Positions 16,441 through 20,814 of a stretch of 64,000 bases of DNA are shown in pieces (positions within the stretch are counted from its first letter, which is position 1; each line of letters opens with the position of its first letter). This DNA is from Methanobacteriota archaeon (GTDB taxonomy: Archaea > Thermoplasmatota > Poseidoniia > Poseidoniales > Thalassarchaeaceae), in the NCBI GenBank assembly GCA_018654845.1, contig JABIKU010000035.1, forward strand, positions 1 through 64,000, read 5' to 3'. The position numbers were made by a program, and so were the translations under genes. The notes under the pieces were generated by a model. The model had not been told where the DNA came from. It saw nothing but the letters and a program-made list of their open reading frames with translations, and did no database searches.

Positions 16441-18378
16441 TCATTCAACTTGGATACCACGGTTGCGGGCATCTTCTGCTTGTGCATCTGCGCGGCCAGC
16501 ATCAACATCGACACTTCGCATCAATACGGTTCCGATAATGATGAGGACGCAGAAACTAGCAACACCAACTCTGCTATCGTATGTTATGGTTAGGTATGTG
16601 TACATCGCAGGACCCATCAAAGCGGCAACTTTGCCGAAGAAGCCAAAGAAGCCAAAGAATTCGGCGCTGCGAGTCTCTGGGACCATCTGACCGAATAGAG
16701 AGCGTGCGAGGCCTTGTGAGCCTCCGAGGAGGGCACCGGCCATACAGCCGAGGAGGAGAAATTGAATATTGACTCCTATACCCATTGGCTCCCAAACAGC
16801 TGCTCTGATTTTCTCAGGAATGATGTCAACCGGCCCATCGCCAAGGCTGGTCGGATGATTATCTCCCATACCTCTTTCTGTATCGAGAGGGCCATTACTG
16901 ACAGAGTAACTGAAACGATTCTTAGCATCGAAAGAGGCAAAGAAATCCGTCATTCGGTCAATATCTGAAGTGGAAACTATCATTGAAGAATCCAATGGAT
17001 CATTGAAGGAATAAACGACTTGCTCGGTGTAATAATCATTCACATGAACAGCCACCATATCGTTCCATTCGTTAACCCAATCCTGTTCATCGCCCTCAAC
17101 CGCAATCTCAAGGGCGTAGGCGTTTTCGCCAATCGTGATAATGTATTGACCAGCCCCCTCTATCCTCTGCTCTATCCAAGTAGTGGAAAGCCCATCCGGA
17201 TGGCTCGACGGGTCGTATGGGTCGGTCCCAGCGGCAATTTCCACTTCATTACTATACCAATCTCCATCGATATTGTCATCGTATGTATCTGCTATTCCGT
17301 CGCCATCAGAATCCCAATCAAATTGGATATCATGTTCAACGTGGTCAGTGAGGGTGAGAGGAGCGAAAGACATTGCGCCAAGGATGACGATGACCCAACC
17401 GACCAAAGAGATGGTTAAGGCATTCTTGGTACTCGTTTTTTCGGCTAATTTTGTGAATCCTATAGCGCATGGAGCAGCAACGAACTGGATAATGAGAATC
17501 GTCAACATCAGCGTCCCAGTTGTCAATCCTAAAACGACGATTCCGTAAATTCCGGCTAAAGCCGTGACGCTGTTGATTCCATCGATGAAGAATAAGAATG
17601 CCAACATATAGATGAAAAGAGTTCGGAATGAACTCATTGACTTGATTGTCTTGATCACTTCACCTGTCGCCATCTTGGCAGAAGCGAATACACCCAACTT
17701 CTCCATTTCATTCTCGATGGGAGGTTCTGGCACATACTTGAACGTCAACATGGCGAATCCCATCCACCAAACACCAGAGGAGGCCATAATAAATGGAATT
17801 ACCCAATCAGCTACAATGAAGGAGAAGAGAATGAAGTGGAATAAAAGCAGCAAACCACCGCCAATATACCCGTAGGCATAAGCTAAATTGGAAATTCTAT
17901 CCATCTCATCGTCGGTACCCATATGAGGCAGTAAAGCATTGTAAAAAACGCCTGCACCATTCAGTCCGATATTCGCTATGACGAACATTATTAGCAACCA
18001 AACCCATTGTCTCGATACGTCAAACATTGGGCTAAAGGCGAGTAATAAGGTCGCTCCAGCTCCCATTATCGTGAAAACTCGTAACCACCACATCTTGATT
18101 GTTCGCAGGTCGGCAATGACACCAAGAGACGGGCTAACCAAAGCCACAAGCAAGGCTGCGACTGTGACCCCGAGGGACCAAACCGCATCCCCGGTCATGG
18201 ATTGGCCGAGAATAACGGTATCCAAGCCATTCGCTTTCAAGAATAGATATCCGAACCAGGCAGGTCCGACCGCAGAGGTCACCGAAGTCTCGAATGAGGA
18301 TTTACCCCAGTCGTAAAATGCATATCCGCGAACTGCTTTAGGGTCTGATGCGCGGTCTAGTTGAATTGTCTCTGACAT
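16441..18378 (-). CDS. MFS/UMF1 (Atg22-like) transporter with large Asp-rich extracytoplasmic insertion
   Basis: ETIQLDRASDPKAVRGYAFYDWGKSSFETSV is typical UMF1; 12-TM-like hydrophobicity interrupted by DSDGDGIADTYDDNIDGD insertion. Confidence 0.85.
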   Translation of the reverse strand: MSETIQLDRASDPKAVRGYAFYDWGKSSFETSVTSAVGPAWFGYLFLKANGLDTVILGQSMTGDAVWSLGVTVAALLVALVSPSLGVIADLRTIKMWWLRVFTIMGAGATLLLAFSPMFDVSRQWVWLLIMFVIANIGLNGAGVFYNALLPHMGTDDEMDRISNLAYAYGYIGGGLLLLFHFILFSFIVADWVIPFIMASSGVWWMGFAMLTFKYVPEPPIENEMEKLGVFASAKMATGEVIKTIKSMSSFRTLFIYMLAFLFFIDGINSVTALAGIYGIVVLGLTTGTLMLTILIIQFVAAPCAIGFTKLAEKTSTKNALTISLVGWVIVILGAMSFAPLTLTDHVEHDIQFDWDSDGDGIADTYDDNIDGDWYSNEVEIAAGTDPYDPSSHPDGLSTTWIEQRIEGAGQYIITIGENAYALEIAVEGDEQDWVNEWNDMVAVHVNDYYTEQVVYSFNDPLDSSMIVSTSDIDRMTDFFASFDAKNRFSYSVSNGPLDTERGMGDNHPTSLGDGPVDIIPEKIRAAVWEPMGIGVNIQFLLLGCMAGALLGGSQGLARSLFGQMVPETRSAEFFGFFGFFGKVAALMGPAMYTYLTITYDSRVGVASFCVLIIIGTVLMRSVDVDAGRADAQAEDARNRGIQVE

Positions 18379-18480
18379 GGTAATACCTAACGGTCGGTAT
18401 TCATCTAAGGGTATTAGCATTGGGGCTTAGGAGAGTATAGAATAGGTCTTGTTCAAAATGAAGAATGCCTGCGCAGTACA

Positions 18481-19608
18481 ATGGCAGAGGACAATTTATG
18501 GGTTCAACCTGATGAAAACTCCTTAGATGCCATTCTACATGGAATGAATAATAGTGATGGGGTAGAGTTCGATTTACGCTTAACCAAGGATAAACGTCTA
18601 ATTCTCCATCATGATCCACGTGATTCAAATAATCGTTTTCTAGAGGAATATGAATCAGACGAACTCGACAATAACCTAATTTTTCTTGATGAATTATTAG
18701 AAAAATCAGAATTTACCGACCCTTGGGTTAATCAAGCAAAAATCGCTTGCATCGAACTAAAGGCACCTCATCCAAAATCAAGAATAGGTGGTGGCTGGTT
18801 CAGAAATGAAGCATGTGTAGGTCATATGAAAGAAATGATCCAATTGGTAAATGAAAACATTTCAGAGTTTGACATTCCAAAAACATGTAAAGTCATTTAC
18901 TCATTTGAACCTCTCACAATGAAAGCAGCTCGAGCCTTTGGAGATGAACATGATTTTGCACAATTAATGCCACATCTCCGACAATGGGGAACGACTACAG
19001 TTCAACGAATGATGGGGACACCTTCATTCATCTCTCATTCACTACCTCGCCTAGTTGAACGTCATCGAGCAAAAGGATCACCCCTCCTGCCGTGTGCTTC
19101 CACGTATCTTTTCGGTCTTCGACGCCACCTCACTCTTGGTAGAACGATTAGTTTGACTCCTGCATCTATTGAGAAATTGAATTTATCAAGAAAGGGCTAT
19201 CCAATTTACATTTGGCCAGCATATCTCAAAATCGAGCACACATTACAAAAATCCGGAATCACAACCTTAACCGACAATTTGGATCCGAACCTCTACACGC
19301 TTCCAGGAGGAGACGCACGATGGGTAAAACCTGCGACACAGCCGTTATCTCCTGAACAAAAAATCGAATTAGAATTAGCACCTATTGAAATGCACAAAGA
19401 ATTGATTGATGAATTGAGAAGAAATGTCACCCCTTGGCATGAATTGACACCATCACAAAGGCGTGAGCACCTATCGACCTGGAGAAAGAATTGGTATTGG
19501 GAAAAAAGCCTCGATGAGTTGTTTGATCTCGCCGATTCTAACAAATTACCATGGGAAGCTATTCGAATGGTAGGACATCGAGGAGCCGGGAAAAAACACT
19601 CGCCCTAA
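18481..19608 (+). CDS. Glycerophosphodiester phosphodiesterase-like protein, apparently circularly permuted
   Basis: N-term DENSLDAILHGMNNSDGVEFDLRLTKDKRLILHHDP; CIELKAP; VIYSFEPLTMKAAR; ITTLTDN; C-terminal end MVGHRGAGKKHSP-stop. Confidence 0.75.
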   Translation: MAEDNLWVQPDENSLDAILHGMNNSDGVEFDLRLTKDKRLILHHDPRDSNNRFLEEYESDELDNNLIFLDELLEKSEFTDPWVNQAKIACIELKAPHPKSRIGGGWFRNEACVGHMKEMIQLVNENISEFDIPKTCKVIYSFEPLTMKAARAFGDEHDFAQLMPHLRQWGTTTVQRMMGTPSFISHSLPRLVERHRAKGSPLLPCASTYLFGLRRHLTLGRTISLTPASIEKLNLSRKGYPIYIWPAYLKIEHTLQKSGITTLTDNLDPNLYTLPGGDARWVKPATQPLSPEQKIELELAPIEMHKELIDELRRNVTPWHELTPSQRREHLSTWRKNWYWEKSLDELFDLADSNKLPWEAIRMVGHRGAGKKHSP

Positions 19609-20814
19609 TTATTCCAATCTTCGGTGAGGTTGGTTTTTTGGAATATATTTGGGTCGATAAATTGGCGTCCCTCGGCCATCACGAGCATTACGTTCATCGA
19701 GAATTTGGGCACTAATTCCGGCTACACGAGCCCATCCGAAGAAAGTCGTATAGTATTCTGGCATCCTAAACCCAACCGAATTGAGTAAACTTCCACTTGC
19801 AATATCGACATTTGGATATGGATTACTAATTTTTGGAATCTCAGACAAGATGGGAGGGATTACTTCCCTCAGTGCCTTGACGATTTGGAAATTATCATCA
19901 TCTGGACAAATCTCTTCTCCGAGTTCAATTAGTAGTCTCGCCCGGGGGTCTTCAGCTCGGAGCACACCATGACCGAATCCGTAAATCGGCCGACGATTTG
20001 CTAATTCTTCACGAACGAATTTTTCTATCTCTTCATGATCTGAAGTTCCAATTCTTTGAACGAACTCCAAACAAGATTGGTTTGCACGGCCATGTAATGG
20101 CCCTGAAAGGGCATTCATCGCACTTGAAAGTGAGGAGTAAATGCTAGCCCATCCTGATGCAACTGCCTTCCCAGAAAAGGTTGAAAGATTTCCTCCTCCA
20201 TGATCCATATGTAAAATAAAGAAGAACCTAAGAACGTGTGTAACTTTCTTCGCTCTTTCGCCTTCATAACCCATCATGTGAACAAAATTTTCAACGAGAC
20301 CAAGTTCTGGTTTACGTGGCTTAAGTTTTTCTTTAACTCCGTTTCTCAATCTGAAAATTCTCGCCATTAATTCAGGCATTCTAGCAATTAAATTCATTGC
20401 ATCAGCTCGAGTGTCACCTGTAGTCTCCGCAGTACCAAGAGCCATTATCCCAATCGATAACCAATCCATCGGATGACCCGACCCTGGCGTTAATGATTCT
20501 AATACTCTCAATGCACCAGTTGGAATATTATCTCCGCGTTGTGCAAGTTCTGCACGGAATTCTTCCGATTCATTGTCAGATGGTAATCTCTTGTGCATCA
20601 GAAGAAAAATAACGTCTTCTTCTTCCAAATCAACTAGGTCCTCTACTGGATACCCAACATAGTGAACTCCCTTGAGGGGATCAACATATGAGGTCTGACA
20701 AGTACCGACTGGTATTCCTCGTAATCCTGTGTCAAGATGCTTGTCCGTCACCGTGAACAAATCTTCACCATCTACCATATAGCCACCCCTCTGATTAACC
20801 ACGTCGGGATTCAA
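19609..20814 (-). CDS. gltA: Citrate synthase
   Basis: GLRGIPVGTCQTSYVDP, HMDHGGGNLSTFSGKAVASGWASIYSSLSSAMNALSGPLHGRANQ, GFGHGVLRAEDPRA. Confidence 0.95.
   Translation of the reverse strand: MNPDVVNQRGGYMVDGEDLFTVTDKHLDTGLRGIPVGTCQTSYVDPLKGVHYVGYPVEDLVDLEEEDVIFLLMHKRLPSDNESEEFRAELAQRGDNIPTGALRVLESLTPGSGHPMDWLSIGIMALGTAETTGDTRADAMNLIARMPELMARIFRLRNGVKEKLKPRKPELGLVENFVHMMGYEGERAKKVTHVLRFFFILHMDHGGGNLSTFSGKAVASGWASIYSSLSSAMNALSGPLHGRANQSCLEFVQRIGTSDHEEIEKFVREELANRRPIYGFGHGVLRAEDPRARLLIELGEEICPDDDNFQIVKALREVIPPILSEIPKISNPYPNVDIASGSLLNSVGFRMPEYYTTFFGWARVAGISAQILDERNARDGRGTPIYRPKYIPKNQPHRRLE

Follow-up and report, generated by a model that had tools for sequence, protein, structure and literature searches.

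A probable natural circular permutation of a GDPD-type (β/α)8 barrel in Poseidoniales archaea

Introduction

Circular permutation is among the recognized ways in which proteins evolve. The locus described here raises the question of whether it has acted on a GDPD barrel. The window, a stretch of 64,000 nucleotides from contig JABIKU010000035.1 of a Poseidoniales archaeon, contains a gene whose product opens at the ENS, E-x-D and HHD portion of the fold and carries the catalytic HRG seven residues ahead of the stop. A preliminary description of this DNA had proposed that the first catalytic strand was moved to the C-terminus. Our analysis indicates that the protein is in all likelihood a cytosolic natural circular permutant of the GDPD-type (β/α)8 barrel, the order, conservation and distribution of the sequence and the homology of both pieces to GDPD being shown, and folding, active-site geometry, catalysis and substrate inferred. 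The permuted order itself is certain as sequence, and that it forms a permuted barrel is very probable.

Results

Gene, flanks and motif order

The gene lies between a transporter gene and a citrate synthase gene.

16441..18420, − strand: Atg22-like MFS transporter, 659 aa, divergent; a neighbour in many Poseidoniales
18481..19608, + strand: permuted GDPD gene, 375 aa and stop, identified from reading frame, Pfam match and orthologues
19609..20814, − strand: gltA, citrate synthase (Citrate_synt, PF00285), convergent, a conserved neighbour

The coding part (18481-19605, + strand) is followed by the stop codon at 19606-19608 and specifies a protein with the N-terminus QPDENSLDAILHGMNNSDGVEFDLRLTKDKRLILHHDP (first residues MAEDNLWVQPDENSL) and the C-terminus RMVGHRGAGKKHSP, directly before the stop. 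By inspection the N-terminus has neither a signal peptide nor a membrane segment, and the protein should therefore be cytosolic. The 3' end of gltA at 19609 abuts the GDPD stop directly, as the preliminary description had noted in arguing against a tandem second GDPD, and gltA adjoins on the opposite strand in 97 of the 113 fetched loci, several of them with short flanks and some overlapping. With the GDPD profile, no second GDPD copy was found in the window's assembly (86% complete). The Atg22-like transporter carries at about residues 385-404 an insert, DWDSDGDGIADTYDDNIDGDW, which is calcium-binding-like, of TSP3 type, and scores under the Pfam cut-off; a similar insert occurs at 17 of the 88 fetched loci checked.

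The motifs of the fold are found in the following order, all on the + strand, with conservation given for 190 aligned proteins.

18514..18522, +: E12-N13-S14, start of α1 (canonical PENT/S); E12 and N13 190/190
18565..18573, +: E29-F-D31, β2, putative metal ligands, 190/190
18607..18615, +: H43-H44-D45, β3; H44 corresponds to the second catalytic His (189/190, one ambiguous)
18754..18762, +: E92-L-K94, β4; E92 is the putative third metal ligand (190/190)
18895..18912, +: β5, residues 139-144, IYSFEP, aligned by profile with canonical SF(D/S/N)P
19201..19218, +: β7, residues 241-246, PIYIWP; W245 189/190; canonical vyvWTvnd
19258..19275, +: β8, residues 260-265, ITTLTD; D265 190/190; canonical dgIiTD; coevolves with β1
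19276..19563, +: β8-to-β1 linker, residues 266-361; R280 and W319 invariant
19564..19590, +: R362-M-V-G365-H366-R367-G368-A-G370, displaced β1 with the catalytic HRG
19591..19605, +: new C-terminal tail KKHSP; K/R then T/S in most orthologues

Direct reading of the frame thus bears out the preliminary account, which had E-L-K, SFEP and TLTDN in canonical order followed by a linker of ~100 aa (residues 266-361, between β8 and β1). The middle-strand assignments, β6 especially, are provisional, as they come from remote profile alignments in which identity is about 16-18%.

Conservation follows the catalytic set. Invariant in the 190 aligned proteins are E12, N13, D26, E29, D31, E92, F142 and D265 in the body of the barrel, and R280, W319, R362, G365, H366, R367, G368 and G370 in the linker and C-terminal segment; the single exception at H44 is an ambiguous base. 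The metal-ligand motifs E-x-D and E-x-K and the second His of H(D/N) of GDPDs are all present, as is the catalytic HRG with the first His, though the latter is located C-terminally. We take these residues, from general knowledge of the family and with support from the profile alignment, to be the two histidines and metal site of GDPDs. Since G365, H366, R367, G368 and G370 are invariant in 190/190, the C-terminal HRG is more than chance, and a chance occurrence was rejected. The preliminary description had given the terminal motif as HRGAG. The position of HRG stands as described; across orthologues the motif is more generally HRGxG, where x is S, A, T, C or rarely V.

The linker has no counterpart in the canonical GDPD profile and presumably comprises α8 plus extra helices. 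Its length is about 100 aa, shrinking to 75 or 60 in some genera, so that much of it would be dispensable. Beyond HRG, K371 is present in 156/190 and T or S at 372 in 158/190, and the exact GHRGxGK[ST] tail occurs in 135/190 and is absent from the canonical GDPDs that were read. The GK[ST] tail could plausibly act as a lid that contacts phosphate, although this is speculation. In the closest relative (91% identical; L002, 2600-2646) the tail changes frame after HRGTGKN relative to window positions 19582-19608 and runs into the end of gltA, so the extreme C-terminal tail appears free to vary.

Orthologues and distribution

Orthologues of the permuted protein were found in 289 of 319 Poseidoniales genomes and in all 22 genera (12/13 genomes of the genus and 132/148 of the family). 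From the fetched loci 195 distinct proteins were read, five of them cut by a contig end. GHRG lies at the C-terminus in 190/190 complete proteins, in which [GA]HRG stands shortly before the stop; the filter missed members of genus g4, because these have QNS instead of ENS. Across the 190, the distance of HRG from the C-terminus is 2-16 residues and that of E-N-S/T from the chosen start 3-19. The orthologue search proposed in the preliminary description returned the same order throughout. The motif order is also identical, with C-terminal GHRG, in a genome assembled as a single contig (G182).

Outside the order the arrangement was not seen among 145 genomes sampled evenly across the phylum: end-to-end permuted matches (E < 1e-119) occur there only in Poseidoniales, while the best matches in other lineages (E about 1e-9) cover the ENS-to-HHD region and, where read, are canonical. 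In thirteen canonical GDPDs of the same phylum that served as controls, EN(S/T) follows HRG at a distance of about nine residues. When the genome collection was scanned with this one protein alone, only a gene 91% identical was returned, single-sequence patterns reaching close relatives only. Searches of viral contigs (family profile) and of phage and plasmid records (window protein as query) gave no relatives.

Several related proteins were seen in the same genomes. Members of genus g4, which belongs to the window's own family, carry a permuted protein with QNS and HHN in place of ENS and HHD (L216, L039, L054, L226); these lie outside the set of 190 and likewise end in GHRG. Genomes of the genus encode, besides this, a canonical GDPD of full length whose N-terminus bears a membrane anchor-like segment (L119, L132). 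Genome G163 has three matching places (L065, L081, L092), one with a long and two with a short linker, which suggests a strain mixture or duplication. Several Poseidoniales (L120, L121, L122, L131) also encode a second, short GDPD-like protein of about 190-220 aa in canonical order, in which GHRLGASG replaces HRGA and the C-terminus RVGRHRV...W(F/L)FG(L/M) is shared; its N-terminal part exceeds the Pfam GDPD cut-off, and the GDPD profile gave no match to it in the window's assembly.

Rotation restores a single domain alignment

The window protein scores 30.4 bits against Pfam GDPD (PF03009; gathering cut-off 23.6), and the native match aligns residues 12-46 with profile positions 10-45, i.e. 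35 of 375 residues and without the first strand of the profile. When the C-terminal tail was placed ahead of ENS and five members were rescored with Pfam GDPD, the window protein rose from 30.4 to 42.0 bits and the match start moved from profile position 10 to 1. Four further orthologues, which also exceed the cut-off, rose from 29.2 to 35.7, 34.4 to 43.5, 56.8 to 60.9 and 35.0 to 41.9 bits, a gain in 5/5 members of 4 to 12 bits.

The same behavior is seen in profile-profile alignment. With HHalign and a template profile of 13 canonical GDPDs, the native profile gives a score of 145.0 in which query positions 11-278 align with template 15-235, while positions 370-377 align separately with template 2-9. 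Rotation extends the alignment to template 2-235, spanning β1-β8 of the canonical GDPD, with a score of 161.6, whereas a shuffled tail scores 145.3, no gain over the native profile. The doubled profile aligns in one piece, 370-660 to template 2-235, with β1-β8 running across the seam. The merging of two native alignments on doubling is, at the level of profiles, the standard signature of circular permutation. At E ≤ 1e-3 the rotated profile matches 22 GDPDs of the PDB and the native profile, built from the same five sequences, 10. Because β1 comes last and the sequence, once rotated, matches the profile from position 1 onward, we file the protein as a permuted variant rather than an ordinary GDPD in canonical linear order. 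The permutation put forward in the preliminary description is accordingly supported, as the one interpretation compatible with all the tests: by motif order, by rotation against Pfam and the PDB, by the shuffled-tail control and the doubled profile, and by its conservation in orthologues with no strand 1 upstream.

Packing of the C-terminal strand

AlphaFold2, run on two near-identical sequences only, returned a model too poor to use (mean pLDDT 31.6, pTM 0.24). Packing was also addressed by mean-field coupling analysis of the 190 sequences in nine settings (effective 53-136 sequences). In each of the nine settings no strand-strand coupling is stronger than that of the pair 262 (β8)-363 (β1), which ranks 3-29 among 43,675 pairs, in a register that sets D265 level with H366. 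Given the low effective number of sequences, and because other known neighboring strands were recovered just partly in the same analysis, we treat the coupling as suggestive of a C-terminal strand lying beside β8.

Proposed architecture and alternative explanations

In the proposed permutant the chain would be cut in the β1-α1 loop and the old ends (after β8/α8 and before β1) bridged by the 60-100-aa linker, giving a new chain order α1-β2-α2 ... β8-linker-β1. The C-terminal strand R-x-x-G-H-R-G would slot between β8 and β2, bringing H366 and R367 next to the E29/D31/E92 metal site and H44, so as to rebuild the standard two-histidine, metal-dependent GDPD center that converts a glycerophosphodiester to an alcohol and glycerol phosphate. 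The two new termini would then be positioned at the catalytic face, and the N-terminal WxQP and the C-terminal GK[ST] might form a cap there over the active site. That the catalytic set is intact speaks for a putative metal-dependent glycerophosphodiesterase.

Two other accounts of the C-terminal segment can be set against this architecture. The window comes from a metagenome assembly that is incomplete (86%, in 37 contigs), and an annotation, frameshift or assembly artefact might conceal a strand 1 lying 5' of ENS or a further GDPD domain downstream. However the in-frame open stretch 5' of the start codon covers 21 codons only and contains no HRG, gltA abuts the stop, and the order is the same in 190/190 complete orthologues and in the single-contig genome. 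An upstream HRGA in orthologues, which the preliminary description had named as grounds for doubt, was looked for: no HRG at GDPD spacing precedes ENS in any of the 190, and the sole in-frame upstream HRG (L199) is not shared and lies about 20 residues from ENT as against the usual 9 or so. An artefact is thus extremely improbable, and a start-codon error, a frameshift and a second tandem domain are ruled out by the orthologues, the closed upstream frame and the abutting gltA. Scarcely more probable is that a truncated GDPD has acquired GHRGxGK[ST] as a phosphate loop resembling Walker A, in which case the segment would not be β1. An exact GxxxxGK[ST] in 135/190 fits this, but it is GHRG that never varies while K and T/S do, and the segment matches GDPD profile positions 1-9. 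P-loop NTPases continue beyond the loop with a helix and the Walker B strand, for which a chain ending 2-16 residues past HRG leaves no room.

Other alternatives accept the displaced β1 and differ in its partner or its purpose. The C-terminal strand could complete the barrel of a neighboring subunit in a domain-swapped oligomer; a long linker and a short terminal strand suit such swapping, and coevolution is blind to the difference between contacts within and between chains. In TIM barrels the end of α8 and the start of β1 are close together, however, allowing a single chain to close without a swap, and in one genus the linker is down to 60 aa with the strand retained, so that we regard a swap as improbable. 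Somewhat greater weight, though still on the unlikely side, attaches to the possibility that the permuted barrel is no longer active as a GDPD and serves as a binding or regulatory protein, or that it acts on another diester. The window protein reaches no NCBIfam equivalog cut-off, its remote matches also include lysophosphatidylglycerol phospholipase D, and genus g4, which owns a canonical GDPD too, has HHN for HHD and QNS for ENS. Catalysis of the GDPD type is favored instead by the invariance of E29, D31, E92 and H366 and the conservation of H44 in 189/190, outside g4.

Origin of the permutation

In a protein tree of the 190 sequences the two Poseidoniales families split with none misplaced (support 0.977). 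This split, together with the gltA neighborhood, indicates that the permutation is older than the split of the order and was vertically inherited, and we infer that it was already present in the last common ancestor of Poseidoniales. The usual model for such rearrangements is a tandem duplication that then loses sequence at both ends; the present survey turned up no tandem intermediate. In the sister order (f3), where citrate synthase is just about 30% identical, a GDPD near gltA was sought, and the contig numbers of the two matches differ where both are listed.

Comparison with known systems

If active, the protein would be a candidate step of glycerophosphodiester recycling in Poseidoniales. 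Marine Group II archaea are without a glycerol-1-phosphate dehydrogenase gene and unusual lipids have been proposed for them (PMC6962369), which makes the substrate question interesting. On a more speculative reading, less likely than not, the protein would be the first case of natural circular permutation within the GDPD/PLC-like barrel superfamily, order-wide in extent, and the WxQP and GK[ST] ends would form a lineage-specific lid with a new substrate choice, for example Marine Group II lipid headgroup diesters. No paper on a permuted GDPD was found among the open-access papers searched, which is weak evidence of absence. Clean permutations that part one catalytic strand from the active site and are fixed across an abundant order of ocean archaea are uncommon. 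As this one cost no catalytic residue, the family lends itself to a direct test of how well a barrel withstands being opened in an active-site loop, and it is a reminder that sequence profiles see just part of such proteins.

Compared with GDPDs of the UgpQ/GlpQ type (PF03009; solved relatives 2pz0, 1o1z, 2otd and 4oec), whose Pfam cut-off it exceeds, the Poseidoniales protein shares HRG, EN(S/T), E-x-D, HHD, E-x-K, SF, W and TD as well as the canonical β2-β8 order. It differs in its C-terminal β1-HRG, the 60-100-aa linker after β8, a longer β6-β7 region and the conserved GK[ST] tail. The canonical GDPDs of the sister order, which is of the same class, and of genus g4 belong to the same family and match the profile over its full length (1-243); unlike in the permuted protein, HRG in these proteins (L119, L128, L129, L132) stands about 9 residues before ENT, and in the sister order they lie on another contig than gltA where checked, unlike the permuted gene. 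Naturally permuted TIM barrels are known from GH70 relative to GH13 (PMC11046441) and from PutA proline dehydrogenase relative to MTHFR (PMC3779223). These are likewise (β/α)8 enzymes permuted with the fold kept, but they come from other families and have other cut points, whereas the Poseidoniales cut would fall in an active-site loop and isolate a single catalytic strand.
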